NCBI GenBank assembly: GCA_017543645.1
Contig: JAFYFR010000049.1
Span: 1-25,767, forward strand
Length of the DNA stretch: 25,767 bases
Reading direction: 5' to 3'
DNA from: Bacteroidales bacterium
GTDB lineage: Bacteria; Bacteroidota; Bacteroidia; Bacteroidales; UBA3824
Shown here piece by piece: positions 4,422 to 24,477 of the stretch. Position numbers and translations under genes: made by a program. Position 1 is the stretch's first letter. Each line of letters begins with the position of its first letter. Below the pieces are notes generated by a model. It worked only from the letters and a program-made list of their open reading frames with translations, was not told where the DNA came from and did no database searches.

Positions 4422-5195
4422 TTACGAAAGAAATCTAAAGACTACAGCTGTGATATTGTCCTTGCCACCGGCGTTGTATGCGCTCTCGGTGAGTGCGGAG
4501 GCAAGTCCTTCGGTGGTTTCGTAGCGTTTTACAAGACGGTAGATAAGCTCGTCGGTGAGAGCGTCGTGCACACCGTCGGAAAAAGCCATCAGAATGTCGC
4601 CATGCTCTATCGGTCGCGGACCCTGCACATCAATCTGCATAAGCGACAAGTCCTGACCAATGGCGGAAGTCATCATATTGCGTTTAGGATGCGTAAAAGC
4701 CTCTGCCTCTGTAATTTCGCCACTATCAACAAGCTGCTGGACAATAGAATGGTCGTGAGTTTCGCGGCTCAGGCTCTCCCTATTCCAAAGATAAACTCGG
4801 CTGTCGCCGATATTTACGGTGTAATATGCGTTGTTGAGTACAAGGAAACCCGAAAGCGTAGAGCCGCAATTTTTGTACAGCGGGTCGGAAGTACTTTTGG
4901 CAAGCACCGCACGGGCGGCTTCGAGAGCAGTATTCCTAAGGAAATCCACCGCCGTAATATTGTCGGGCATATTCTCAAAAGCATCTTGAAACACTTCCAC
5001 TGTTTTTGCGCTTGCGAAATCGCCATGTCCGTGTCCGCCTACGCCGTCAGCCACAAAGCAGAGTGTTTTTCCGTTTATTTCGGGTGAGACATAAAAACTG
5101 TCTTCCTGCGATGGCTTGCGCCCTTGTATACTGCTGGTTTCCACCTTGTTAGCAGAACCATTATTACTAAATATCTTTTTTATCGAACTGAGCAT
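4422..5195 (-). CDS. PP2C-family Ser/Thr protein phosphatase
   Basis: A 257-residue metal-dependent phosphatase of the Stp/PrpC type, which removes phosphate from Ser and Thr. The standard motifs appear in order: GRKPSQEDSF (25-34, with the conserved R and E-D), FVADGVGGHGHGD (47-59, metal-binding D50-G51), GSTLSGFLV (111-119), NIGDSRVYLW (128-137), SDGVHDAL (206-213, metal-binding D207) and GGKDNITAVVF (243-253, metal-binding D246). All catalytic acidic residues are present, so it should be active. Length matches the bacterial family. There is no signal peptide or membrane segment, placing it in the cytoplasm. It starts 19 bp after the kinase stop codon, the usual pairing of a Hanks-type kinase with its cognate phosphatase; the kinase and possibly the lipoprotein or Hsp70-like protein are likely substrates (inference). 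Confidence 0.93.
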   Translation of the reverse strand: MLSSIKKIFSNNGSANKVETSSIQGRKPSQEDSFYVSPEINGKTLCFVADGVGGHGHGDFASAKTVEVFQDAFENMPDNITAVDFLRNTALEAARAVLAKSTSDPLYKNCGSTLSGFLVLNNAYYTVNIGDSRVYLWNRESLSRETHDHSIVQQLVDSGEITEAEAFTHPKRNMMTSAIGQDLSLMQIDVQGPRPIEHGDILMAFSDGVHDALTDELIYRLVKRYETTEGLASALTESAYNAGGKDNITAVVFRFLS

Positions 5196-5214: not shown

Positions 5215-6966
5215 TTACTTTTTCTTGTGTGTTAGAAACTCCTTCGCCATATATCCGCGCTTTTTGTCCACCCGCACTTCCACCCAGTAGTAACCGTCGT
5301 CGATAACCTCCACGGATGTTCCTTTGGGATATTCCTGAAGAACTTTGCTGTTTTTGCTGGCAAGTTCGCGCAGTTTGAGGTTGGCTTTGGTAAACACAAT
5401 TTCGCCTTTCTTAAAAACTTCGTCGCCTTTATCCACAGGCACTTCCACCGTTCCGTTACTGCCCTGAGGTCTTTCCTGACCCCATCCGAATTCCTCTTTA
5501 AGCTCCATGGTAAGAACCAAAAGTATCGCAGCAATTATCACAAGAAAGATGAACGTCTGCACAGGTTTCAAGCGAGATTTCTGTGGATGCTGATTCTCAG
5601 GCGAATAGCCAATGCCGCGTTTTGCGTTGTCGCGATTGGCTTTCTCGACAGAGATCATGCGCTCGCGGGCTTTTTCAAGCTCCACATCCATAAGCAGTTC
5701 CACCGCTTTTGGGTCGATTGCGTTTTTGGATGTTTCAAAATCAATATCTTTGCGCTCCTTACGGGTGATAACGCCGTCGGCAGCATATTCTCTGATTTTG
5801 GCGGCAAGCCAGTCGGGAACTGACGCCTTTGGCTGAGGGGAGTCGTTTATACGGAGCAAAGCCAAGATTTCATCGCACGACGAATAACGCCCTTCGGGGT
5901 ATAGCATAGTGCTCTTGTCGGCAATCTCGCGCAGCACACCGTTGTTGATACCAGCGAGCTTTCTGCGGTCGGGAGCTCCTGCGAGCCATTCAAGAATTAT
6001 CATTCCTACAGAGTAGATGTCGGCACGCTGATCGGCGGTGTAAGCCTTGTTGTTGAGTTCGGGAGCGGCGTATTTTGGAGTTCCGGCACGCTTGAGGTTG
6101 TCGGGCAGGTCGTCGGCGGAGGCAAGTCCGAAATCTATAATCTTAACATTGTCGCCCTTATATGTGAGCATAATGTTGTCAGGCTTGAGGTCGCGGTGGA
6201 AAATCTGTTTCTTGTGGACATAGCTGAGCGCATCCAAAATCTCCACAATCACACGGCGGACAAAATTGATGTCCTGACGGTGCTCCACATTGATAACTTC
6301 GGTGAGTGTTCGACCGTCGATATATTCCATATAATAATACGGTCCTTCGGCATCCTCACCCTTGCCGTAAACATGCACTATATTGTTGTGCTCGAGAGCA
6401 AAACCATTGTCGAACTCCTTGAAAAACAATTCTATATATTGAGGATTCTGACGGTATTGCTGCTTTATGCGCTTGATAATCACCTTGCGGCGTCCGAGAT
6501 GCACTGCGCTGTAGATATCGCTCATTGCGCCCGACGAATCTATAAGCTTCACCTCCGAAAACATATTGCCGTCTGGCGAAGACGACACAACCGCCATCGA
6601 GGTCATTCCCGACTGCGAATCGGTATCGTTGACAAAGCCCGAACCCTGACTGTCGGAAACGAATCCAGAACCTTGGTTGCCGGAAACGAATCCAGAACCT
6701 TGGTTGTTAGAAATAAATCCAGAACCCTGATTATCAGACACAAACCCAGAACCCTGCGAAAGTTCGTCGGTTTCGGGGTATTCGGAATTCTGCTTGCCCG
6801 TAACGTGCGCTATCTCAATTTCGGCACTCTTGATAAGCACAAGCAGCTCTCCGGTGTTTATGCCCATATCTGCGGCCTGCTTACGAAGGAGTTCGCGTTT
6901 GCCTTCGGTCATGCCCGTCCTCACATATTGGTCAATCAGTTTTTTTAATTTATCTATATTTTCCAT
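5215..6966 (-). CDS. Membrane-anchored Hanks-type Ser/Thr protein kinase with SH3-like C-terminal domain
   Basis: A 583-residue kinase. Residues 1-70 are helical, and 71-115 hold five 9-residue QGSGFVS-type repeats. The kinase domain spans about 138-372: glycine loop GAMSDIYSAV (146-155), ATP-binding K165, HRDLKPDN (257-264), DFG (278-280), and the activation-segment end AAPE (300-303). All catalytic residues are present. Residues about 384-440 form a small helical module with DGVITRKER, resembling TerB-like tails of other bacterial kinases. A single membrane helix (about 472-488) leads to a probably periplasmic SH3-like domain (521-580) that could sense the envelope; there are no PASTA repeats. 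The gene follows the lipoprotein by 13 bp and precedes the phosphatase by 19 bp. Kinase assignment is secure; ligand and substrates are unknown. Confidence 0.93.
   Translation of the reverse strand: MENIDKLKKLIDQYVRTGMTEGKRELLRKQAADMGINTGELLVLIKSAEIEIAHVTGKQNSEYPETDELSQGSGFVSDNQGSGFISNNQGSGFVSGNQGSGFVSDSQGSGFVNDTDSQSGMTSMAVVSSSPDGNMFSEVKLIDSSGAMSDIYSAVHLGRRKVIIKRIKQQYRQNPQYIELFFKEFDNGFALEHNNIVHVYGKGEDAEGPYYYMEYIDGRTLTEVINVEHRQDINFVRRVIVEILDALSYVHKKQIFHRDLKPDNIMLTYKGDNVKIIDFGLASADDLPDNLKRAGTPKYAAPELNNKAYTADQRADIYSVGMIILEWLAGAPDRRKLAGINNGVLREIADKSTMLYPEGRYSSCDEILALLRINDSPQPKASVPDWLAAKIREYAADGVITRKERKDIDFETSKNAIDPKAVELLMDVELEKARERMISVEKANRDNAKRGIGYSPENQHPQKSRLKPVQTFIFLVIIAAILLVLTMELKEEFGWGQERPQGSNGTVEVPVDKGDEVFKKGEIVFTKANLKLRELASKNSKVLQEYPKGTSVEVIDDGYYWVEVRVDKKRGYMAKEFLTHKKK
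6622..6756 (-). repeat. Five tandem 27-bp repeats encoding QGSGFVS(D/N/G)(N/S) in the kinase
   Basis: Five in-frame copies of a 27-bp unit give Gln-Gly-Ser-Gly-Phe-(Val/Ile)-(Ser/Asn) plus two variable residues, at kinase residues 71, 80, 89, 98 and 107. The DNA copies differ mostly at third codon positions, so the peptide is under selection while the DNA has drifted. The segment lies just before the catalytic domain and offers nine or so serines that could be autophosphorylated or serve as a docking tail (inference). Confidence 0.9.
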
Positions 6967-6979
6967 TTTTCAGTAAGTT

Positions 6980-7948
6980 CTATTTTTTTAGCAGGAACGT
7001 GGTTTGATCCACCTCCTTGCCGTCCATAAAAAACGTCACGGTGTAAAGCCCGGGTGTAAGAGTAATGCCATTGGTATGCCAAGTTATGTCCATGGCGGTC
7101 TTATTACCCGAAAAAAATGAATTTTTTTTCACAGTATAGGCGATGGACTTTCCTTCGTAGTCGAACATACCAGAATCGTTGTTTCTCAATACATTACCAT
7201 CTTTGTCGGTAATGCGGACAAACACTGTAACGTCTTTTGGCTGAGAATATTTGTTTTCGTTTATATTGAATTTAATATCTACTGTCGCAATCTTCTTGGC
7301 TTTGCGGACATCGGGCAGAACAATGTTGATCGCCGACAATGTGAGTTTGGCGGCATCCTGCGTAACCTCCTGCTTTTCCTTCGCGGTCTGGGCCACTTCG
7401 TTGGCGAGTTCGGTGTTCTGCGACTGTAGGTTCTCGTTTTCGGTGCGCAGATTGGTAACCTGCTGATGAAGTCCCGAAATTTCCTGCTGCAGAGCCACCA
7501 CCTCTTTCTGCTTGGCATCAATAGCCGAAAACATCATATTCAGAAGCTGCTGCGCCGAGGCGTTTTTGTATCCGGCGTTTTTAAAATCCTTGGCAATGTT
7601 GCTGTTTTTGGCGATATAGCCCTTAATCTGGGCAACAAGGCGGTCGAGCTCCTTGTTCTGCTCGGGTGTGGCAGAACCGTGGCTCTTGATAACGCTCTTC
7701 AGACTGTCGATAGCCATTTCGCGGAGACGGATGCTGTCCTCAAAATTGCCGAAACGCGCGATGCTGTTGTCGTAGAGCTTGAGCATCTCCGATTGACGGC
7801 CGTTTTCTTCCTGATATTGCCGCAACAAAGTTTCAAGACTATCGGCACGGCTCTCCGCATCACCGCCTATGATGCCGCACGAAACGCCCGACATCACTAC
7901 CAATACCGCTAATATTCTGTATATAAATAATTTCATCTTTGATGACAT
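6980..7948 (-). CDS. Coiled-coil lipoprotein with C-terminal beta domain, first gene of the kinase unit
   Basis: A 322-residue envelope protein. The N-terminus (MKLFIYRILAVLVVMSGVSC) is a signal sequence ending in a lipobox-like GVSC with the acceptor cysteine at residue 24. The -3 Gly is not the usual Leu, so lipidation is likely but not certain. Residues about 30-200 are charged and heptad-rich (LQQEISGLHQQVTNLRTENE and flanking parts), predicting a long coiled coil. Residues about 210-322 are beta-rich (VDIKFNINENK, VTVFVRITDKDG, LTPGLYTVTFFMDGKEV), like an Ig-type domain. A second ATG at 7934-7936 is an alternative start. It is preceded by a good -7 box and followed by the kinase after 13 bp, so it may be the periplasmic partner of the kinase's SH3-like domain. 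I do not recognise a named family. Confidence 0.8.
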   Translation of the reverse strand: MSSKMKLFIYRILAVLVVMSGVSCGIIGGDAESRADSLETLLRQYQEENGRQSEMLKLYDNSIARFGNFEDSIRLREMAIDSLKSVIKSHGSATPEQNKELDRLVAQIKGYIAKNSNIAKDFKNAGYKNASAQQLLNMMFSAIDAKQKEVVALQQEISGLHQQVTNLRTENENLQSQNTELANEVAQTAKEKQEVTQDAAKLTLSAINIVLPDVRKAKKIATVDIKFNINENKYSQPKDVTVFVRITDKDGNVLRNNDSGMFDYEGKSIAYTVKKNSFFSGNKTAMDITWHTNGITLTPGLYTVTFFMDGKEVDQTTFLLKK

Positions 7949-10723: not shown

Positions 10724-11083
10724 TTATTTTACCAAAAGCTTTTTGATAAGGACTTTGCCGTCGTCGAATGTAATCTTGGCAAGATAAATACCTGATTCAC
10801 AGTTTTCAAGATACAACGAAACATCTTCGTAAAGGTCTTCGGATTTTTTCTTCACCTGAACGCTCTTGCCAATAATGTTGGTGATTTCTACCTTTATGAT
10901 AAGTGCCTGCGACTTGAAATTTACCACATTGCCCACCACAGGGTTGGGATAGATTATCACGTCGTGGGCAAAGCTATTAAGATTTTGAACGTAGAAATCT
11001 TGAATTATTGTTTTCTGCGCCTCTGCCTGCGAAAACGTTATGCAAAATAATGCCGTTAATAATATGGTTTTAACGAGTTTCAT
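10724..11083 (-). CDS. Minimal secreted protein consisting of a signal peptide and a T9SS type A sorting domain
   Basis: A 119-residue protein. Residues 1-23 are a classical signal peptide (KTILLTALFCITFSQAEAQ). Residues about 42-119 match the type IX secretion C-terminal sorting domain: VIIYPNPVVGNVVNF, then VEITNIIGKSVQV, then SGIYLAKITFDDGKVLIKKL with the final basic LLVK. Known CTDs follow a cargo domain and are removed by the PorU sortase after export through the T9SS. Here only about 20 residues (KTIIQDFYVQ and a few more) separate the two signals, so the cargo is almost absent. It may be a tiny exported peptide, a surface-anchor carrier or a shrunken remnant. It lies between kdsB and rho and is not obviously co-transcribed with either. 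Domain call is firm, role unknown. Confidence 0.85.
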   Translation of the reverse strand: MKLVKTILLTALFCITFSQAEAQKTIIQDFYVQNLNSFAHDVIIYPNPVVGNVVNFKSQALIIKVEITNIIGKSVQVKKKSEDLYEDVSLYLENCESGIYLAKITFDDGKVLIKKLLVK

Positions 11084-15810: not shown

Positions 15811-17946
15811 TCATTTAGGATATTCGATACGCGCATGGTAAATATTCATGAGCTTTTCTTTGAAAAGCTCTTTTACCGTATCTATATCGCGGAATGTGAG
15901 GTTGGTGTTGTCGAACTGTTTTTGGGCAATCTGGTTGTTAACAATGTTTTCCACAAGGTTGCCGATGGTAGAGGTGTCGTATTTTTTGAGACTGCGCGAC
16001 GCCGCCTCTATCGAGTCTGCCATCATCACCACGGCGTTTTCTTTGTTGAGCGGACGCGGACCCGGATATGTGAACTTTGCATCACAGTCCTCGTCGGGAT
16101 GCTCGTTTTTATACATTTTGTAAAAATACCCAGCCTTGGTAGTGCCGTGGTGGGTCTTGATAAAGTCAATAATCTGAATTGGAAGCTTGTTCGACTTGGC
16201 TATGTCAACACCTTTAATTACGTGGTTAATAATAATTTCGGCACTTTTGAGGTTATCCAACTTGTCGTGAGGATTAATACCAGTTACCTGATTTTCAGTA
16301 AAATACATAGGTGCGGTAAGCTTGCCTATATCGTGATACAGCGCACCAGTGCGGGCAAGGTGCGGGTTGCCGCCGATTTTGAAAATAGCAGCCTCGGCAA
16401 GATTGGCCACCTGCATACAGTGCTGGAATGTTCCGGGAGCCTCCTCAGCCAAACGCCTCAGCAAAGGACGGTTGCTGTCGGCAAGTTCTACCAAGGTAAC
16501 GTCGCTTAGCAGTCCGAACACCTTTTCGAACAGATATATAACAGGATAAGCCAAAAGCAGCAGCATACTGTTGATGCCGAGGTCGATAAGCGTTGTCCAG
16601 TTGGTCTCGTTGATATTGCCGTTGTACATAAACTCAAAGCTCAGATACACAAGCGCATAAAGCACAAAACATATAAACGACGTGCGGAAAACAAGTCCAC
16701 GTCGGTTGATCTGCTCTAACGAAATAATCATAAAGTATCCCGGCACAAACTGCATCACAAAATATTCAAACGAGTTGGGTACAACAAAACCCGTTGCCAC
16801 ACAGGTCATTATATGGAAAAACAACGCTGTGCGGGTATCGAAAAACGTCTTTATTATCAACGCCAACAGCAAAAACGGCACTACCCAGATGCTGAACGGA
16901 TTGTATCTGATAACCAGACTCATACCCACAATCACGGCTGTCATAAGGCAGAGTATCAGTAGAGAATATTTGGTCTGGTAAAAAATTTCCCGGCGGAACG
17001 TCCTCAAAAACAGATATATAAGCGTAAAAAACAGCACAAAGACAATAGCCTGGCCAAGAAAAGTGTAGTTGTAGCCCGCACCATGGTCGCTCTGCTCGTA
17101 CTCGCGCCGCAACGATTCGAGAATCCTGAACTCCTCCTCGTTTACCATCTCGCCCTGAAAAATAATTCGCTGCCCCTGCTGAACAATGCCCCGCGTAAGC
17201 GAAATATTGTTGATATTCTCGTTCAGCACTTTCTGCGTGGTAGCATCGTCGTAGTTGATATTCTGCTCAAGCCATTGATTCGGATTAAGCCCCTCCACAA
17301 TTTTTTCAAGATTCTTGAACTCCTCGGAGCTCATCTTGCCCGCCGATTCAGACATAAACGCCCTCATGCAGTTTTTGATGTAGAGATAAGCTGTTTTGGT
17401 GGTAAACACCTCCGACGAAGGCTTTTGCGTGGTCATTGTGCCGTCTTTGATAAGTATAACGCGGTCTTTGATAGAAGTGCCGTTGGGCAGCGACTCGCTT
17501 TCGAGAATGCCGTTCTGATATACAAACGAAAGGGCGTTGTATATGGTGTTGCGGAAATTATGATAAAGGTCGCTGCTGCTTATAAGTGTGTCGTTGATAG
17601 TGTCGGTACGTCCCAAATGCTCCTTCATAAGGGCGTTGTAACTGCGCAGGAAATGCTCGATATTAGCCACAAGCACATGGTTGTCCTTGTTGAAATAGTG
17701 TTTAGTATCCTGAATAAGAGTGTTTTTGTCGTCTTCGATCTCCGCCGCCGACTTGTATATGGCAAAGTCGAAAGGCGCGATAAGGTTCTCGTGCTTCCAC
17801 GGACTGCCTTTCTGATACTCGTATTTGAATTTACCCTCCTTAGGCAGGGCAAACAATATCACCACCACCGCCGCAACATAAATCAGAATCCTGAATATGC
17901 CCGACCATGTATTTATCAACGATAGGTTATTTCTGCTTCTTTCCAT
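15811..17946 (-). CDS. pgpH: 7TMR-HD family phosphohydrolase (PgpH/YqfF type, probable c-di-AMP phosphodiesterase)
   Basis: A 711-residue membrane enzyme. Order of parts: one N-terminal helix (IFRILIYVAAVVVILFAL), an extracytoplasmic region of about 270 residues matching the 7TM-HD extracellular domain, seven hydrophobic helices (roughly 310-490), and a cytoplasmic HD domain. The last includes PGTFQHCMQVANLAEAA, GALYHDIGKL (metal-binding H-D near residue 537), MYFTENQ, HHGTTKAGYF and PGPRPLNKENAVVMMADSIEAASR. These match Listeria PgpH and Bacillus YqfF, which hydrolyse cyclic di-AMP; that specificity here is inferred. I chose ATG 17944-17946 over an in-frame start at 18006 because a -7 box lies between them. 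The 3' end abuts pyrI with no gap. Confidence 0.92.
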   Translation of the reverse strand: MERSRNNLSLINTWSGIFRILIYVAAVVVILFALPKEGKFKYEYQKGSPWKHENLIAPFDFAIYKSAAEIEDDKNTLIQDTKHYFNKDNHVLVANIEHFLRSYNALMKEHLGRTDTINDTLISSSDLYHNFRNTIYNALSFVYQNGILESESLPNGTSIKDRVILIKDGTMTTQKPSSEVFTTKTAYLYIKNCMRAFMSESAGKMSSEEFKNLEKIVEGLNPNQWLEQNINYDDATTQKVLNENINNISLTRGIVQQGQRIIFQGEMVNEEEFRILESLRREYEQSDHGAGYNYTFLGQAIVFVLFFTLIYLFLRTFRREIFYQTKYSLLILCLMTAVIVGMSLVIRYNPFSIWVVPFLLLALIIKTFFDTRTALFFHIMTCVATGFVVPNSFEYFVMQFVPGYFMIISLEQINRRGLVFRTSFICFVLYALVYLSFEFMYNGNINETNWTTLIDLGINSMLLLLAYPVIYLFEKVFGLLSDVTLVELADSNRPLLRRLAEEAPGTFQHCMQVANLAEAAIFKIGGNPHLARTGALYHDIGKLTAPMYFTENQVTGINPHDKLDNLKSAEIIINHVIKGVDIAKSNKLPIQIIDFIKTHHGTTKAGYFYKMYKNEHPDEDCDAKFTYPGPRPLNKENAVVMMADSIEAASRSLKKYDTSTIGNLVENIVNNQIAQKQFDNTNLTFRDIDTVKELFKEKLMNIYHARIEYPK

Positions 17947-17973
17947 TACAATTGTGTTCGCATAAAATGTAAG

Positions 17974-17981
17974 CAAAGGTA
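17974..17981 (-). promoter_or_regulatory. -7 box for the 7TMR-HD gene
   Basis: Minus-strand TACCTTTG fits TAnnTTTG and lies 27 bp upstream of the chosen start, in the 82-bp gap after the LRR-CHAT gene. There is no clear -33 element at 19 bp; read-through from the LRR-CHAT gene is also possible. Confidence 0.45.
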
Positions 17982-18028
17982 ATAAGAAAAAATAGAAAGG
18001 ATGCACACAAACGGAAAATATTTTGTTT

Positions 18029-21000
18029 TTATTCCACTCCGTCCACCATCACAAACGCCGCCCACTTGCGCGGGTCTTGATATTTTTTGCGCAAAAATTC
18101 TTGCGCCGAGATGAACGCCTCGCGTTTGCTCTTGCCGTTGACAAGGTTTTTGTAAAACTCTGTCATCAAGTCTTTTGTGGCGTTGTCGTCCACTTTCCAT
18201 AGGCTCATTACTATGGTATGCGCGCCAGCCTTCTTGAAGCCACGCTGCAATCCAAACACGCCTTCGCTCGTTACCTCGCCCAAACCTGTCTGACAGGCGG
18301 AGAGAACAACCAAATCAAGACCTTTGAAATCGAGGCGGGAGATTTCTTTGGCGGTGAGGATGCCGTCGTCAACGCCTTCGGGAATGTCCTTGCGCTTTTT
18401 GGGGTCGAGGGCTGAATTGGCTCCGGCAAAGAGAAGCCCGGACTGACTGAGTGTGATGTCCTCTCTTTCGTAACTATTTACCACGGTATCTTTTGGCTGG
18501 TAGAATCCGTGCGTGGAAATAAGCATATTGCCGATGCCTTGTCCCGAAAGTTTCTTGAACAATTCTTCCGTGGCGGTAATGCCGGTGGTATTGTCAACTA
18601 ACTGGTAATCGGCTTCTTTGAGAATTTTGCTTACCGCTTCGTACTCCAATTGGCTGCCGGGCAGGAAGGTAACGCCGCTGCGCAATGTGCTGTCTTCGAT
18701 AATAGGCACATCGCGGAAGGCAACGGTGATGCTGTCGGAAAATTCCTTCAAATCCAGCCAGTCGCCTTTGCCAAAATTGTATTTTATGCCGCCAAACACT
18801 GCGGCGGTTTTTGTGGTTTTGGATTTGCCGTTGTTCAACGCCAAAAGCCGAGTGGACGATATGCGGTAGATTTTGTATTTTTGGGAGATGGTGCGGTGTT
18901 CGTCGATTGGTGCGTATTCTATGGCGATGTTGTAGAGCTGCCACGAGGGTGAGAAATAGACCTTGCCGTCGGTGGAAAAATACTGTTCAAGGGGTTTCCA
19001 AACGGCGTTGTAGACATCAGTATTGGAATAATAGGTATCTTTGATTTTGGAGAAATCACTGAGGGATATTAGTTTTGGTGAGTCAAAATCCCGTTTCAGC
19101 ACCAAGGCGAAAAGGCTGTCGGCATCATTGAAGAAAAACTCGATGGCACAATCTTTTTTTCCAAGAGAGTTCTTTACCATTTGCCAATCAACCTTCATAT
19201 AGTTGGTAATGTCGGCAATCTGCGAGGAGCGTTGCATTAGGTTGTTTTCAAGCAGTTCGGAGAGGATTCTTAGATCTTCTCTTTTGGCTGAATCAGTATC
19301 CATCTGCAACCGATATTGCTTCAGCTTATAAAAATCGTCAATAAGCTTTTGGTCTTTGGAGTTAATAATTACTGAGGAGAGACTCTGTTCCGACGACAGC
19401 AGTAGTCCTTTACTTACCAGCAGCGAGTTGTATGCCATACATATCGACTCATTATTGGACAGACGAGTGCATATTTTCACTATGTTGTCAAAAGATAGTT
19501 GGTGTTCCTGCCAATAGGAGCTGCGCTGATAGGAGTTCATAAACGTGAAGTTCCGTTTCAACTTGTCAAACTCGTATATGAAAGATTTTTTGTAATAGGT
19601 ATAAGCTCCTGTCCATGCGTTGCGATTGTAATAAAAATCACCCATGATAGAAAACAAGGTGGGTTCATTCTTGAACGATTCAAAATCTAGATAATTAAGT
19701 GGATTATCAGTAAAAGGGAAATTATTTATTCTATAATATAAATAACATTTTTGTATATCCAATATGATATCATCGGTTAAACTGCAAAATAGCCCAAAGT
19801 TCTCGTGGGGAGGAAGCCCAAGAAAAACTCCACTATTATCATCATAAAATGGATTCTTATTTTGCATAAAGTTTCTTTTGAACAGCAAATCCCAATAATA
19901 TAACCAACTATATTCATCACATCTTTGATGATAATCAAACATATCTATACCTGATTGTATTTTATATGTAATGTCATAACCTTTTAAATAATTATAAAAA
20001 GGGAAACGTTCCAACAGAATTTCATTGGCTTTTCCATCTTGATGAAGATTGAGATAAGCTTCAGCACTTTGGAGCAACAGCAATGAGGAGTAACGAATAA
20101 AATCCTTGTTTTGCAATGTGTCTACTACCCCTGCCTTAAAACTATTTTCATACTTTTTCATTATCAAATCAAATCCTTCTTGGCTATAATGAAGCATACG
20201 TTCAAAATCGCCAATCGTGGAATAATATTCCGCTATTGATTTGTATACACTAAAATGATTGAATCCACTTAGTTTGGCAGACTTTAAAATATCTATCGCT
20301 TTTTGGCAATATTCATGAATCAAGTCGAAACGATCCTGATATTTGTAGTAATCTATCAAACATTTGTATACCAATAAATTGGTGGTAGACGAAGTATCAA
20401 TATCACTTTTTACTAATGCAGGATAAGAAAAAACACTTTCTTCAATCACCTTAACACTTACGGGAATGGTGACGGTTTCGAGTGAGGGGCAATCGTAAAA
20501 AGCACCCATTTCTATATGTTCCACCCCGTCTTCGATTGTTACCGACTTTAATTTTTTACAATGCTTAAATGCACCATTTCCAATCAATTTTACACTTCCG
20601 GGAATGGTGATGGATTCAAGATTTTCACAAGAGGAAAACGCAGATACTCCTATTCTTTCCACACCATTTCCGATTGTTACATATTTAAGTTTCTTACATC
20701 CATTAAACGTACCATCCGAAATATTTTTGACACTGCCTGGAATGGAAACCGATTCAAGGTTATCACAGTTCAGGAACACTTCTTCACCAACTTTTTCAAC
20801 GCCGTTTTCAATTGAGACAGATTTTAAACTTACAAAATCTTCAAACATCCGATTCCCGATTATTCTTATATGTCCGGGAATCGTGATAGAATCAAGTTCT
20901 ACCTGCCAACCATTGAAAGCTCCAGTGGTAATATTGACAACACTTTTGGGAATCACAAACTTAGTAAATAATCGTGGTACATGCAGTAATACAGTTGTAT

Positions 21001-23701
21001 CAGAATTGAAACAATAATTTTGCTCGTATGGTTCAAAAGCATCAATACATTTTTGGATACTTTCGGGAAATACTATATTTTCTAAGTTGTTACAACTTGC
21101 AAATGCCTTATCCAGTATTGCTTCTACACCGTTTCCGATTGTTACATTTTTTAGGTTCCCACATTTCTCAAACGCATAGGTTTCAATTGTTTTGACACTT
21201 CCAGGAATGGTGATGGATTCAAGATTTGAACATCCACTGAAGGCACGATAAGAAATACGAACAACGCTTTCGGGAATAGAAAACTCCTTGACAGATTGTG
21301 GCACTCGTACTAAAATAGTGGAATCAGCATTGTACAACAATAGATTCTTGCAATCTGAAAACGCATTACTATTACATTTAAATTGAACACTTTCGGGAAT
21401 ACTAATAGATTCTATGTTATAACAATCTTCAAATGCTCCATTATCTATTGATTTCACGCCATTTTCGATTGTTACTGATTTTAAGTTCTCGCAACTCGAA
21501 AATGCTTGATGGCCGATTTTCTTGACACTACCAGGAATGGTGATGGATTCAAGCGAACAAAATGCAAACGCCGAATTATCAATTTCTTCAACGCCGTTTT
21601 CGATTATTACAGATTTTAAGTTCCCACAACGATTAAATGCGCCTAAGCCGATTTTCTTGACACTACCAGGAATGGTAACAGATTCAAGATTGGAACACTC
21701 AGCAAACGCACGAAAACCTATATTTTCTACACCGTATTCAATTGTTAAACATCTGAGATTCTCACATTCCTTACAATCATCTATTTTTTTCATATTTCCA
21801 GAAATGGTGACGGATTCAAGACCTGCACATTTAATGATATTGTAATTGTTCTTAATAACTCCATTATATTCAGTAGTATCCGCATTGAACAAAAATACGT
21901 TATCGCATCCCGCAAAATCCTCCTCCCAAATTTCTCTGACACTCTCTGGTATAAATACAGAATCAAGATTTGTACATCCATAAAAAGCTTGAAAACCTAT
22001 TTCTTCCACGCCGTCTTCGATTGTTACTGATTTTAGGTTTACGCATCGCAAAAATGCTGCATTGCCGACTGTCTTGACACTACCAGGAATGGTGATGGAT
22101 TCTAGGTTGGCGCAATCACTGAATGCACCATCACGAATAGTAACAACACTTTTAGGAATAGAAAACATCTTGACTGATTGGGGCACATGCAGCAATTCCG
22201 TGGTGTCAACATCATACAACAAACGATTTTCATAATCAGGGAACGCTTTTTCCCCAATGCGTCTGACTCCGGTGGGTATTATGATGTCAGAAAGGTTGTT
22301 ACATGATTCAAACGCATAATCATCTATTTCTGAAACTCCGACTCCAAAGGTTACAGATTGTAAACTGGTGCATCCAGAAAATGCACGTTCCCCTATTTCC
22401 TCAATACTTTCGGGAAAAGTGATTTTAGTAAGGCAATTACAACCACGAAAAGCATAATCATCGATTTTTTCAACTCCGTTTTTCAAATTCAGAGTCTTCA
22501 AATTATCACATTCCTGAAAAGCATATTTTGCTATAGTTTTAACGCTGCCAGGTATGATAATTGATTCAAGTTTTTTGCATCTCCAAAACGCACCTATTCC
22601 TATTGCCTTAACACTGCTGGGAATGGTGACGGATTTAAGGTTTTCACAAATTGAAAAGGCATAGTCTTCAATCTTCTCAACTCCGTTAGCTATGGTTATT
22701 TCATAGAGATTTCCGCATCCTTGAAAGGCATATTCTCCAATCTCTTTAACTGATTTGGGAATGGAGATTGATTTTAATCCTGAACAATTATGAAACATTC
22801 TGGGAGCTATTTGTTCCAAGTTGTTTGGAAGTTTTACCGTTTTAAGATTCTTACACGCCCAAAAAGCCGATTCTCCAATTTTTTTAACACTATTGGGAAT
22901 TGTCAGCAACGTAAGCCCATCGCAATACGAAAACGCGCCTTCCTCTATTATTTCTACGCTGTTTGGAATGGTTACAGATTTAAGATTATAGCATCCTTGA
23001 AATGAGTATCCCCCAATTCTTTTGACAGATGATGGTATTGTGTATTCCGACAGGTTGGGACAGCTGATTAGTCTTGTCTTGTTGTAACTGAACAGCACAC
23101 CGTCAATAGTGGAAAAAATCTGGTTATTAGGGTCAACTTCAAATTTGCGCAACTTGTAGCATGTACTAAAAGCGCACCCCCTTATCGTAGTTACACTTGA
23201 AGGTATAGAAACAGATTCGATATTAGAACACTCCTCAAATGCCGACTCTTGAATTTCTTTGATATGATTGGGAACTGCAAGTTTAGTTAATTTGTCGCAA
23301 TCGAAAAAAGCTCCATAGCCTATTATTGTAACACTTTCGGGAATTGTATATTCGTCGGTGGCTTTGACAGGAGGGCAGCAGATTATTTTAGATTTGTCCT
23401 TAGAGAACAAAACGCCGTCAATAGAAGTGAAAAAACTGTTCTCAGAATCTACTGAAATTTCTTCCAAGACGGGACAATGTTTGAACATCATGCCTTTTAT
23501 ATTTGTGATGTTCGGTGGAATATAGACTTTTTTCAAGTTTGGACAATCTTTAAAGGCATAATAATCAATTGTGCCTACATCATTTGGTATGGCAATTTCA
23601 GTTATGCTTTTGTCGCCGGTGTAAGTCCAACCTTTGTCCTCTTGCGAGAATACAAACAGAGGAAACAACAAAAAAAATAATATAGCTAAGGTCTTTAACA
23701 T
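18029..23701 (-). CDS. Secreted LRR (BspA-type)-TPR-like-CHAT caspase-family protease protein, 1890 residues
   Basis: One uninterrupted frame encodes three regions. Residues 1-20 are a signal peptide (LKTLAILFFLLFPLFVFSQ), so the protein is exported. About 32-1095 hold some 46 BspA/LRR_5 repeats of about 23 residues, with pattern LxSVTIPxSVxxIGxxAFxxCxN. About 1100-1560 is helical and Tyr-rich with TPR-like pairs (FSVYKSIAEYYSTIGDFERM, LFSIMGDFYYNRNAWTGAYT). About 1580-1888 is a CHAT domain with catalytic His in LISTHGF (near 1729) and catalytic Cys in VLSACQTGLGE (near 1803), then GVFGLQRGFKKAGAHTIVM and SLWKVDD. The dyad is intact. There is no T9SS sorting domain, so periplasmic or membrane-associated action is likely. 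It has a perfect promoter of its own. BspA repeats usually mediate binding; the recognition-then-proteolysis role is inference. Confidence 0.92.
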   Translation of the reverse strand: MLKTLAILFFLLFPLFVFSQEDKGWTYTGDKSITEIAIPNDVGTIDYYAFKDCPNLKKVYIPPNITNIKGMMFKHCPVLEEISVDSENSFFTSIDGVLFSKDKSKIICCPPVKATDEYTIPESVTIIGYGAFFDCDKLTKLAVPNHIKEIQESAFEECSNIESVSIPSSVTTIRGCAFSTCYKLRKFEVDPNNQIFSTIDGVLFSYNKTRLISCPNLSEYTIPSSVKRIGGYSFQGCYNLKSVTIPNSVEIIEEGAFSYCDGLTLLTIPNSVKKIGESAFWACKNLKTVKLPNNLEQIAPRMFHNCSGLKSISIPKSVKEIGEYAFQGCGNLYEITIANGVEKIEDYAFSICENLKSVTIPSSVKAIGIGAFWRCKKLESIIIPGSVKTIAKYAFQECDNLKTLNLKNGVEKIDDYAFRGCNCLTKITFPESIEEIGERAFSGCTSLQSVTFGVGVSEIDDYAFESCNNLSDIIIPTGVRRIGEKAFPDYENRLLYDVDTTELLHVPQSVKMFSIPKSVVTIRDGAFSDCANLESITIPGSVKTVGNAAFLRCVNLKSVTIEDGVEEIGFQAFYGCTNLDSVFIPESVREIWEEDFAGCDNVFLFNADTTEYNGVIKNNYNIIKCAGLESVTISGNMKKIDDCKECENLRCLTIEYGVENIGFRAFAECSNLESVTIPGSVKKIGLGAFNRCGNLKSVIIENGVEEIDNSAFAFCSLESITIPGSVKKIGHQAFSSCENLKSVTIENGVKSIDNGAFEDCYNIESISIPESVQFKCNSNAFSDCKNLLLYNADSTILVRVPQSVKEFSIPESVVRISYRAFSGCSNLESITIPGSVKTIETYAFEKCGNLKNVTIGNGVEAILDKAFASCNNLENIVFPESIQKCIDAFEPYEQNYCFNSDTTVLLHVPRLFTKFVIPKSVVNITTGAFNGWQVELDSITIPGHIRIIGNRMFEDFVSLKSVSIENGVEKVGEEVFLNCDNLESVSIPGSVKNISDGTFNGCKKLKYVTIGNGVERIGVSAFSSCENLESITIPGSVKLIGNGAFKHCKKLKSVTIEDGVEHIEMGAFYDCPSLETVTIPVSVKVIEESVFSYPALVKSDIDTSSTTNLLVYKCLIDYYKYQDRFDLIHEYCQKAIDILKSAKLSGFNHFSVYKSIAEYYSTIGDFERMLHYSQEGFDLIMKKYENSFKAGVVDTLQNKDFIRYSSLLLLQSAEAYLNLHQDGKANEILLERFPFYNYLKGYDITYKIQSGIDMFDYHQRCDEYSWLYYWDLLFKRNFMQNKNPFYDDNSGVFLGLPPHENFGLFCSLTDDIILDIQKCYLYYRINNFPFTDNPLNYLDFESFKNEPTLFSIMGDFYYNRNAWTGAYTYYKKSFIYEFDKLKRNFTFMNSYQRSSYWQEHQLSFDNIVKICTRLSNNESICMAYNSLLVSKGLLLSSEQSLSSVIINSKDQKLIDDFYKLKQYRLQMDTDSAKREDLRILSELLENNLMQRSSQIADITNYMKVDWQMVKNSLGKKDCAIEFFFNDADSLFALVLKRDFDSPKLISLSDFSKIKDTYYSNTDVYNAVWKPLEQYFSTDGKVYFSPSWQLYNIAIEYAPIDEHRTISQKYKIYRISSTRLLALNNGKSKTTKTAAVFGGIKYNFGKGDWLDLKEFSDSITVAFRDVPIIEDSTLRSGVTFLPGSQLEYEAVSKILKEADYQLVDNTTGITATEELFKKLSGQGIGNMLISTHGFYQPKDTVVNSYEREDITLSQSGLLFAGANSALDPKKRKDIPEGVDDGILTAKEISRLDFKGLDLVVLSACQTGLGEVTSEGVFGLQRGFKKAGAHTIVMSLWKVDDNATKDLMTEFYKNLVNGKSKREAFISAQEFLRKKYQDPRKWAAFVMVDGVE
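20417..23608 (-). repeat. About 46 tandem 69-bp BspA-type LRR-coding units
   Basis: Units of about 23 codons are repeated in frame. They often alternate between an IPGSVKxIG form and an IENGVExI form, making a 46-codon dimer. Shorter irregular units containing (D/S)(T/S)T and VPQSVK interrupt the array near residues 500, 607, 800 and 905, and DGVLFS-type units occur twice near the N-terminal end. A 30-bp identical stretch occurs at 21521-21550 and 22073-22102, its last 20 bp also at 21201-21220, which indicates recent internal duplication. Confidence 0.9.
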
Positions 23702-23735: not shown

Positions 23736-23766
23736 CAAATATAAGTATTTGCCAGTAATTTGCAAA
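23736..23766 (-). promoter_or_regulatory. Promoter of the LRR-CHAT gene, TTTG-N19-TATATTTG
   Basis: On the minus strand TTTG (23763-23766) and TATATTTG (23736-23743) are spaced by exactly 19 bp, a full match to the Bacteroidetes housekeeping promoter. The start point would be near 23729, giving a leader of about 28 nt. Confidence 0.8.
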
Positions 23767-23817
23767 AAATATTTCAGCATGGTTGATAAAAATATAACGA
23801 GGAAACAAAATTTTCAT

Positions 23818-23825
23818 CATATTTG
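23818..23825 (+). promoter_or_regulatory. Possible -7 box for nth
   Basis: CATATTTG matches TAnnTTTG except for the first base and lies 19 bp before the nth ATG at 23845. No -33 element is visible. It points away from the LRR-CHAT promoter without overlapping it. Confidence 0.35.
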
Positions 23826-23844
23826 CATTCCAAAAACACAAACC

Positions 23845-24477
23845 ATGAGCAAATCATTATACCAAGCCGTTACAGGCTATTTTACCCAAACAATGCCCGA
23901 CGCCAAAACGGAACTGAAATACGGAAATCCGTTTCAACTGCTTGTGGCGGTGCGTCTTTCGGCTCAATGCACCGACAAGAGGGTGAATATGGTAACTCCT
24001 GCGCTGTTTGAGCGTTTTCCCGATGCCGAATCGTTGGCGGAAGCGGAGTTCGACGAGGTAATCAAATACACCAAATCTATTTCTTACCCCAATTCAAAAA
24101 CCCGTGACATAATAGCTGCGGCGCAGATAATTGTGGAAAAATTCGGCGGCGCATTACCCAAAACGGTAGAAGAGCTTGAAACGCTTCCCGGGGTAGGCAG
24201 AAAAACCGCAAACGTGGTGGCTTCGGTGCTTTACGGCGCAGAGGTGATGCCGGTAGACACCCACGTGTTCAGGGTGGCAGCGCGCCTCGGACTTACCAAA
24301 AACGCCAAAACACCAATCCAAGCCGAAGAACAGTTAGAAAAAGGTTTTGCACCGGCACTATTAGGACGGGCGCACCATTGGCTGATACTCCACGGACGGT
24401 ATGTATGCACGGCGCGGAATCCCAAATGCGGAGAATGTGGAATATCAAACCTGTGCAAGTATTTCAACCAAAAATAA
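23845..24477 (+). CDS. nth: Endonuclease III (DNA glycosylase/AP lyase)
   Basis: Removes oxidised pyrimidines and cleaves abasic sites in base-excision repair. From ATG 23845 (MSKSLYQAV) the protein has 210 residues, as in E. coli Nth (211). The helix-hairpin-helix LETLPGVGRKTANVVAS carries the catalytic lysine (GRKTA), and MPVDTHVFRVAARLGL carries the catalytic aspartate. The C-terminal cysteines CTARNPKCGECGISNLC follow the C-x6-C-x2-C-x5-C pattern of the [4Fe-4S] cluster. The frame extends upstream to 23749, but those 32 extra residues cross the candidate promoter and lack family similarity, so the shorter start is preferred. It is divergent from the LRR-CHAT gene and convergent with pssA. 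Confidence 0.96.
   Translation: MSKSLYQAVTGYFTQTMPDAKTELKYGNPFQLLVAVRLSAQCTDKRVNMVTPALFERFPDAESLAEAEFDEVIKYTKSISYPNSKTRDIIAAAQIIVEKFGGALPKTVEELETLPGVGRKTANVVASVLYGAEVMPVDTHVFRVAARLGLTKNAKTPIQAEEQLEKGFAPALLGRAHHWLILHGRYVCTARNPKCGECGISNLCKYFNQK

Follow-up and report, generated by a model that had tools for sequence, protein, structure and literature searches.

The window analyzed here, a 25,767-nucleotide (nt) stretch of a Bacteroidales genome (contig JAFYFR010000049.1), encodes on its reverse strand a protein that joins a leucine-rich repeat (LRR) array to a CHAT protease domain and is referred to below as the LRR-CHAT protein. From the letters alone, an earlier note had described a single frame combining a signal peptide, about 46 BspA-type LRRs, a middle resembling tetratricopeptide repeats (TPRs) and a CHAT domain with both catalytic residues, and had proposed sensing followed by proteolysis. 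The gene is one uninterrupted frame of 1890 amino acids (aa) with an ATG start, and Pfam together with a structural model recovered the succession of LRR array, helical middle and CHAT domain within it (Table 1). The first residues, MLKTLAILFFLLFPLFVFSQ, look like a signal peptide by eye, in agreement with the note, and no transmembrane stretch beyond this start was noted by eye.

The C-terminal end matches CHAT (PF12770) with an E value of 5.3e-47 (161.1 bits against a cut-off of 24). Both catalytic residues are present where the note had read them, H1731 in STHG and C1803 in SACQTG; neither column varies across the 55 aligned rows, and within the C-terminal region conservation is highest around these two residues. 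An AlphaFold2 model of residues 1138 to 1890, made with A2, reached a predicted local distance difference test score (pLDDT) of 83, showed the caspase-like fold that the note had assumed and was helical up to about residue 1500; a single-sequence AlphaFold2 run of the C-terminal part (pLDDT 35.8) was discarded. A fold search with the model matched Csx29/TPR-CHAT structures, separase and gingipain. Csx29 was the best structural match over the middle plus CHAT, separase and gingipain aligned over the C-terminal ~270 to 290 residues at a root mean square deviation of 3.0 to 3.4, and the transmembrane anti-sigma factor DdvA also matched. In a sequence search of PDB, A1 gave no match and A2 gave 95 sequences, with TPR and LRR structures among the best 60 listed. 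The TPR-like middle of the note thus stood as a modelled helical segment with TPR-CHAT fold matches but had no Pfam TPR match. The C-terminal end is predicted to be a caspase/separase-type cysteine protease, whose activity we infer from the fold and the invariant residues.

Table 1. Positions of the LRR-CHAT gene, its parts and its flanking genes in the window
Feature	Position	Strand	Basis and remarks
LRR-CHAT coding sequence	18029..23701	-	1890 aa plus stop; ORF (open reading frame) list, Pfam
Signal-peptide-like N-terminus, residues ~1-19, ...LFVFS/Q	23645..23701	-	Read from sequence
BspA-type LRR_5 array, residues ~31-1094, 35 units fitting the 23-residue pattern	20420..23611	-	Pfam, pattern
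Helical TPR-like middle, residues ~1138-1500	19202..20290	-	AlphaFold2 model with low-confidence loops; fold matches to TPR-CHAT
CHAT domain, residues 1563-1886	18044..19015	-	Pfam bounds; modelled protease part starts earlier, ~1515
Codon of catalytic His H1731 (STHG)	18509..18511	-	Sequence, alignment
Codon of catalytic Cys C1803 (SACQTG)	18293..18295	-	Sequence, alignment
CHAT core, residues 1715-1890	18032..18559	-	Zone of excess same-genome DNA identity in related genomes
7TMR-HD (pgpH-like), downstream, co-directional flank	15811..18006	-	Pfam; true start probably ~17955
nth (endonuclease III), divergent flank	23749..24477	+	Pfam HhH-GPD, EndIII_4Fe-2S; true start probably further in

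A search for relatives with residues 1130 to 1890 returned 3418 matches; the 120 listed include the window's own protein as P0001. Eleven of the 120 (P0001 to P0008, P0024, P0030 and P0040) carry LRR_5 plus CHAT, the pairing that the note had wanted traced; because ten further listed proteins share it, a chance joining is excluded. Nearly all remaining listed matches have TPR plus CHAT, and P0068 and P0077 have CHAT alone by Pfam. The nearest TPR rows among the matches listed (P0009 to P0020) are 48 to 51% identical over about two thirds of the query, and a crude rule detected a similar hydrophobic start in 105 of the 120 listed proteins. In a genome collection, the best 80 of 96 relatives were kept, which gave 79 loci, mostly from ruminant Bacteroidales metagenome-assembled genomes (MAGs). 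Only one of these loci, L001 (RGIG6546, sheep reticulum), has the LRR array, and it encodes P0002; as genes are truncated in some of the 79, a long array could be missed there. Nine genomes searched each held 4 to 15 matches at E ≤ 1e-20, with fragments among them. All 18 genomes of the family of G001, the known LRR-CHAT carrier, matched at E ≤ 1e-60, and 23 of 393 genomes drawn from its order did so too, with at most four candidates scored per genome. Nine further loci inspected from these two scans, a part of the copies there, had no LRR array. Residues 1140 to 1365, used as an LRR-CHAT marker, hit 0 of the 393 genomes and also missed G001, so this result is uninformative. On viral contigs, none of 44 pattern-matching stretches encoded a relative, and literature searches covering titles and abstract starts recognized no paper on the LRR-CHAT architecture. 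Judged by its relatives, LRR-CHAT seems to be a rare form within a large Bacteroidales CHAT family that has been copied repeatedly.

LRR_5 (PF13306) matches P0001 in 11 stretches, with an E value of 6.3e-247 and 805.5 bits (cut-off 27.7). The count of about 46 repeats turned out to be a length estimate, since an array of this length divided into 23-residue repeats gives that number; 35 units fit the repeat pattern, and the remainder is degenerate or interrupted. These pattern-picked units have Phe at position 20 in 35 of 35 and Cys at position 23 in 31 of 35, residues that the pattern itself favors there. Tandem Repeats Finder (TRF) found no tandem array of single LRR units, and recent tandem duplication of such units was rejected on that ground. 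Larger DNA matches inside the array are 68 to 84% identical, which fits older segmental growth. The arrays of P0001 and P0002 are in register over residues 23 to 293; beyond, P0001 is longer, and the complete protein exceeds P0002 by 562 aa. P0001 scored 329 bits with the HupY/LrrG LRR adhesin model (cut-off 1250), and all its matches in an NCBIfam scan were far under the cut-offs. A degenerate pattern for an N-terminal cap had 0 matches in 131 loci. The LRR array of P0003 weakly matches the PARCEL repeat model TIGR02167 (24 bits, cut-off 30); PARCEL-type elements might spread LRR units.

The family is modular, with near-identical protease ends attached to differing arms. P0024 and P0030 are 37 to 77% identical per alignment window before residue ~1520 and 97 to 100% after it (97% over 377 residues); P0004, P0005 and P0007 step at the same point from 43 to 77% (91% in one alignment window) to 84 to 100%. 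Compared as whole blocks, these sets are 63 to 68% identical upstream and 95 to 100% at the protease end. A quick tree of the 120 proteins, covering their last 480 residues, required 3 changes of the LRR label against a shuffled mean of 10.7, and 0 of 500 shuffles were as low. P0040 was placed among TPR forms, and P0024 and P0030 joined four TPR rows on a long branch, a placing that the best CHAT identities do not mirror. The two halves of P0024 thus group differently, for over residues 1345 to 1540 its nearest rows are LRR forms (68% with P0005). Differences at 4-fold sites between P0001 and L080 fell from 11/16 upstream through 24/47 to 9/27 in the CHAT core.

We then compared same-genome copies of the related, nearly all TPR-CHAT, genes at flank-checked 4-fold sites (91 genes, 27 genomes, 146 same-genome pairs, 500 label shuffles). 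Over residues 1715 to 1888, 4-fold differences were 0.510 within genomes and 0.582 between genomes (0/500 shuffles); upstream of the CHAT core they were 0.575 and 0.556 (373/500). A first version of the synonymous test had given 0/500 for the CHAT core and 166/500 upstream. Exact DNA runs of at least 50 nt, in pairs with upstream identity below 0.6, occurred in 5 of 127 same-genome pairs versus 7 of 3522 between-genome pairs. One same-contig pair in L005, L092 and a neighboring gene, shares a 106-nt exact run with 36% identity upstream; for the longest run, 141 nt, both genes are cut at contig ends, and an assembler overlap is possible. Four contigs of rumen Bacteroidales MAGs (G003:C461, G003:C434, G404:C288 and G008:C206) end inside the CHAT core, around the stretch from His to Cys, which would be expected of locally identical copies, and CHAT-core genes are prone to misassembly. 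The excess of same-genome identity confined to the CHAT core fits gene conversion in the related TPR-CHAT genes. Conversion might extend to the LRR form as well, to judge from analogy and from the identity steps at ~1520.

Along the LRR-CHAT gene, the GC content at third codon positions (GC3) rises by 0.29, from 0.31 ahead of the final 540 residues to 0.60 within the final 390. In 79 family genes the mean rise is 0.081, with 4 at 0.2 or more and a largest value of 0.25. The shift in the LRR gene is thus extreme for the family and not different in kind. In a test for horizontal transfer between the lineages of G001 and the window, 4-fold differences overlapped (0.56 for pgpH; for LRR-CHAT, by region, 0.33 to 0.69 in one comparison and 0.33 to 0.80 in another).

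Several known systems resemble the LRR-CHAT protein in part. The Bacteroidales TPR-CHAT proteins share its CHAT end, the helical segment before CHAT and mostly a signal-like start, and differ by a TPR arm in place of the LRR_5 array; where named, they are called “CHAT domain-containing protein” or “tetratricopeptide repeat protein,” and we know of no function for them. Bacterial CHAT proteases are known mainly as cytosolic components of defense systems. Csx29 of type III-E CRISPR (Craspase) likewise has helical repeats followed by a protease with a His/Cys pair, in the TPR-CHAT fold met above; however, alignment identity is ~11%, it acts with Cas7-11 in a CRISPR complex, and it has no LRR array. 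Separase and gingipain, both of clan CD, share the C-terminal protease fold and lack the LRR array; gingipains use a sorting tail of the type IX secretion system (T9SS), which the LRR-CHAT protein does not have. BspA-type LRR surface proteins share the 23-residue LRR_5 repeats; to our knowledge, members have no protease, and their arrays are known as surface adhesins. DdvA differs as a transmembrane anti-sigma factor (PDB titles). The NTPase domain that lies between sensor and effector in NLR/STAND receptors was not found by Pfam or in the model, where the middle consists of helical repeats. The catalytic pair of Csx29 is H615/C658 according to an excerpt of PMC10028731. Excerpts of two further papers place CHAT proteins, guessed to be immunity proteins, in a variable region of the Bacteroides fragilis type VI secretion system (PMC11854122) and count CHAT as one of the domains in the proteins that diversity-generating retroelements target (PMC10907252).

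Taking these data together, we lean slightly toward the LRR-CHAT protein being an exported caspase-like protease. Its hydrophobic start would direct it through Sec to the periplasm or surface; the BspA-type arm, replacing the TPR arm of the relatives, would bind a partner; the helical middle would couple arm and protease, by analogy with Csx29; and CHAT, going by its modelled fold and invariant residues, would cleave a substrate. Across the family, recognition arms may diversify and exchange, with purifying selection and a degree of gene conversion keeping the protease end uniform. Sensing followed by proteolysis, as proposed in the note, is thus partly supported, by architecture, fold and catalytic pair; binding, activation and substrate we infer.

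Several points weigh against this interpretation. The start is the sole basis for export, and a Pfam scan of P0001 found no T9SS sorting tail (Por_Secre_tail). No substrate, partner or ligand was found, and no neighboring family recurs in more than 8 of the 79 CHAT loci, many of them truncated. Regarding conversion, the signal weakens in pairs with upstream identity of at least 0.4 (CHAT 0.509 vs 0.533, 15/500) or at least 0.5 (0.517 vs 0.525, 144/500), although the CHAT-minus-upstream difference stays (16/500 and 20/500). Some long exact runs come from genes cut at contig ends, and the pairs behind the steps in P0024/P0030 and P0004/P0005/P0007 are not known to share a genome. Identity between P0001 and P0002 or P0003 climbs more smoothly, without a sharp step, so conversion is not shown for the window's own gene.

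Alternatively, the LRR array might mainly serve as adhesin or scaffold and hold the protein at the surface, with CHAT doing general or self-processing work and no sensing involved. The adhesin role of BspA-type arrays and the HupY/LrrG score, far under its cut-off, speak for this possibility, which we consider rather unlikely: nearly all other listed relatives bear TPRs, not LRRs, on a similar protease end, and the TPR part of Csx29 lies at the interface with Cas7-11 in the excerpt of PMC10028731. That CHAT is a signaling module and not a protease, as might hold for DdvA, seems improbable, given the invariance of His and Cys in 55/55 rows, the conservation around them and the lack, by eye, of a transmembrane stretch after the start. 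A cytosolic Craspase-like or gasdermin-type defense and suicide protease, to which the best fold match would point, is very unlikely. P0001 and, by the crude rule, 105 of the 120 listed proteins have a signal-like start, no PADLOC 2023 family matched P0001 at E ≤ 0.01, the 16 window ORFs scanned with Pfam gave neither a Cas nor a gasdermin match, and no recurring partner was found. Co-encoding with Cas7-11 and Csx30, as for Csx29, was not seen within the window, whose longest listed ORF other than LRR-CHAT is 743 aa; Cas7-11 is longer than this. That metagenome assembly joined separate LRR and CHAT genes into a chimera, as near-identical CHAT cores, contigs of other genomes ending inside them and the GC3 shift might suggest, is hardly credible given the uninterrupted frame, the same architecture in ten other listed proteins (one, P0002, in a named MAG and alignable in register) and the GC3 rise in related CHAT genes.

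If the LRR-CHAT protein is indeed an exported protease with an LRR recognition arm, it could, as a doubtful extension, belong to an extracytoplasmic receptor repertoire without STAND ATPases, in which each cell has many exported caspase-like proteases, TPR and LRR arms are swapped and conversion keeps one working protease end. Such a repertoire would represent NLR-like logic outside the cytosol, perhaps for self/non-self recognition or envelope defense. With a family that has signal-like starts, interchangeable LRR/TPR arms and a protease end of greater uniformity, the reach of caspase-type effectors would extend to the rumen Bacteroidales envelope. Such a family also offers a case in which it can be tested whether sensors diversify alongside a uniform effector.

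The LRR-CHAT gene is flanked by nth and pgpH, and relatives have other genes at that site. We compared five stretches around pgpH, reading gene names by eye in G001, G006 and G009. The pgpH-nth interval holds an acyltransferase-like gene in G001 and G006, and a TonB-like gene, a radical-SAM-like gene and an ATPase in G009. The ATPase of G009 adjoins pgpH in G002 and G003, where nth was not found; nth and pgpH are ~12 kb apart in G004 and on separate contigs in G005. The interval (L152, L153 and L149 in G001, G006 and G009) is a site of variable gene content, and LRR-CHAT is therefore a lineage-specific occupant with no operon partner implied. Sequence relatives of the window genes point to a probable rumen-type Bacteroidales host. 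Elsewhere in the window, a 119-aa protein (10724-11083, minus strand) has a Por_Secre_tail at residues 44 to 118, so the host probably has a T9SS. A gene at 6980-7948 has only a weak CENP-H match, under the cut-off; it lies near a Ser/Thr kinase with SH3_3 (5215-6966, minus strand) that adjoins a PP2C phosphatase (4422-5195, minus strand).
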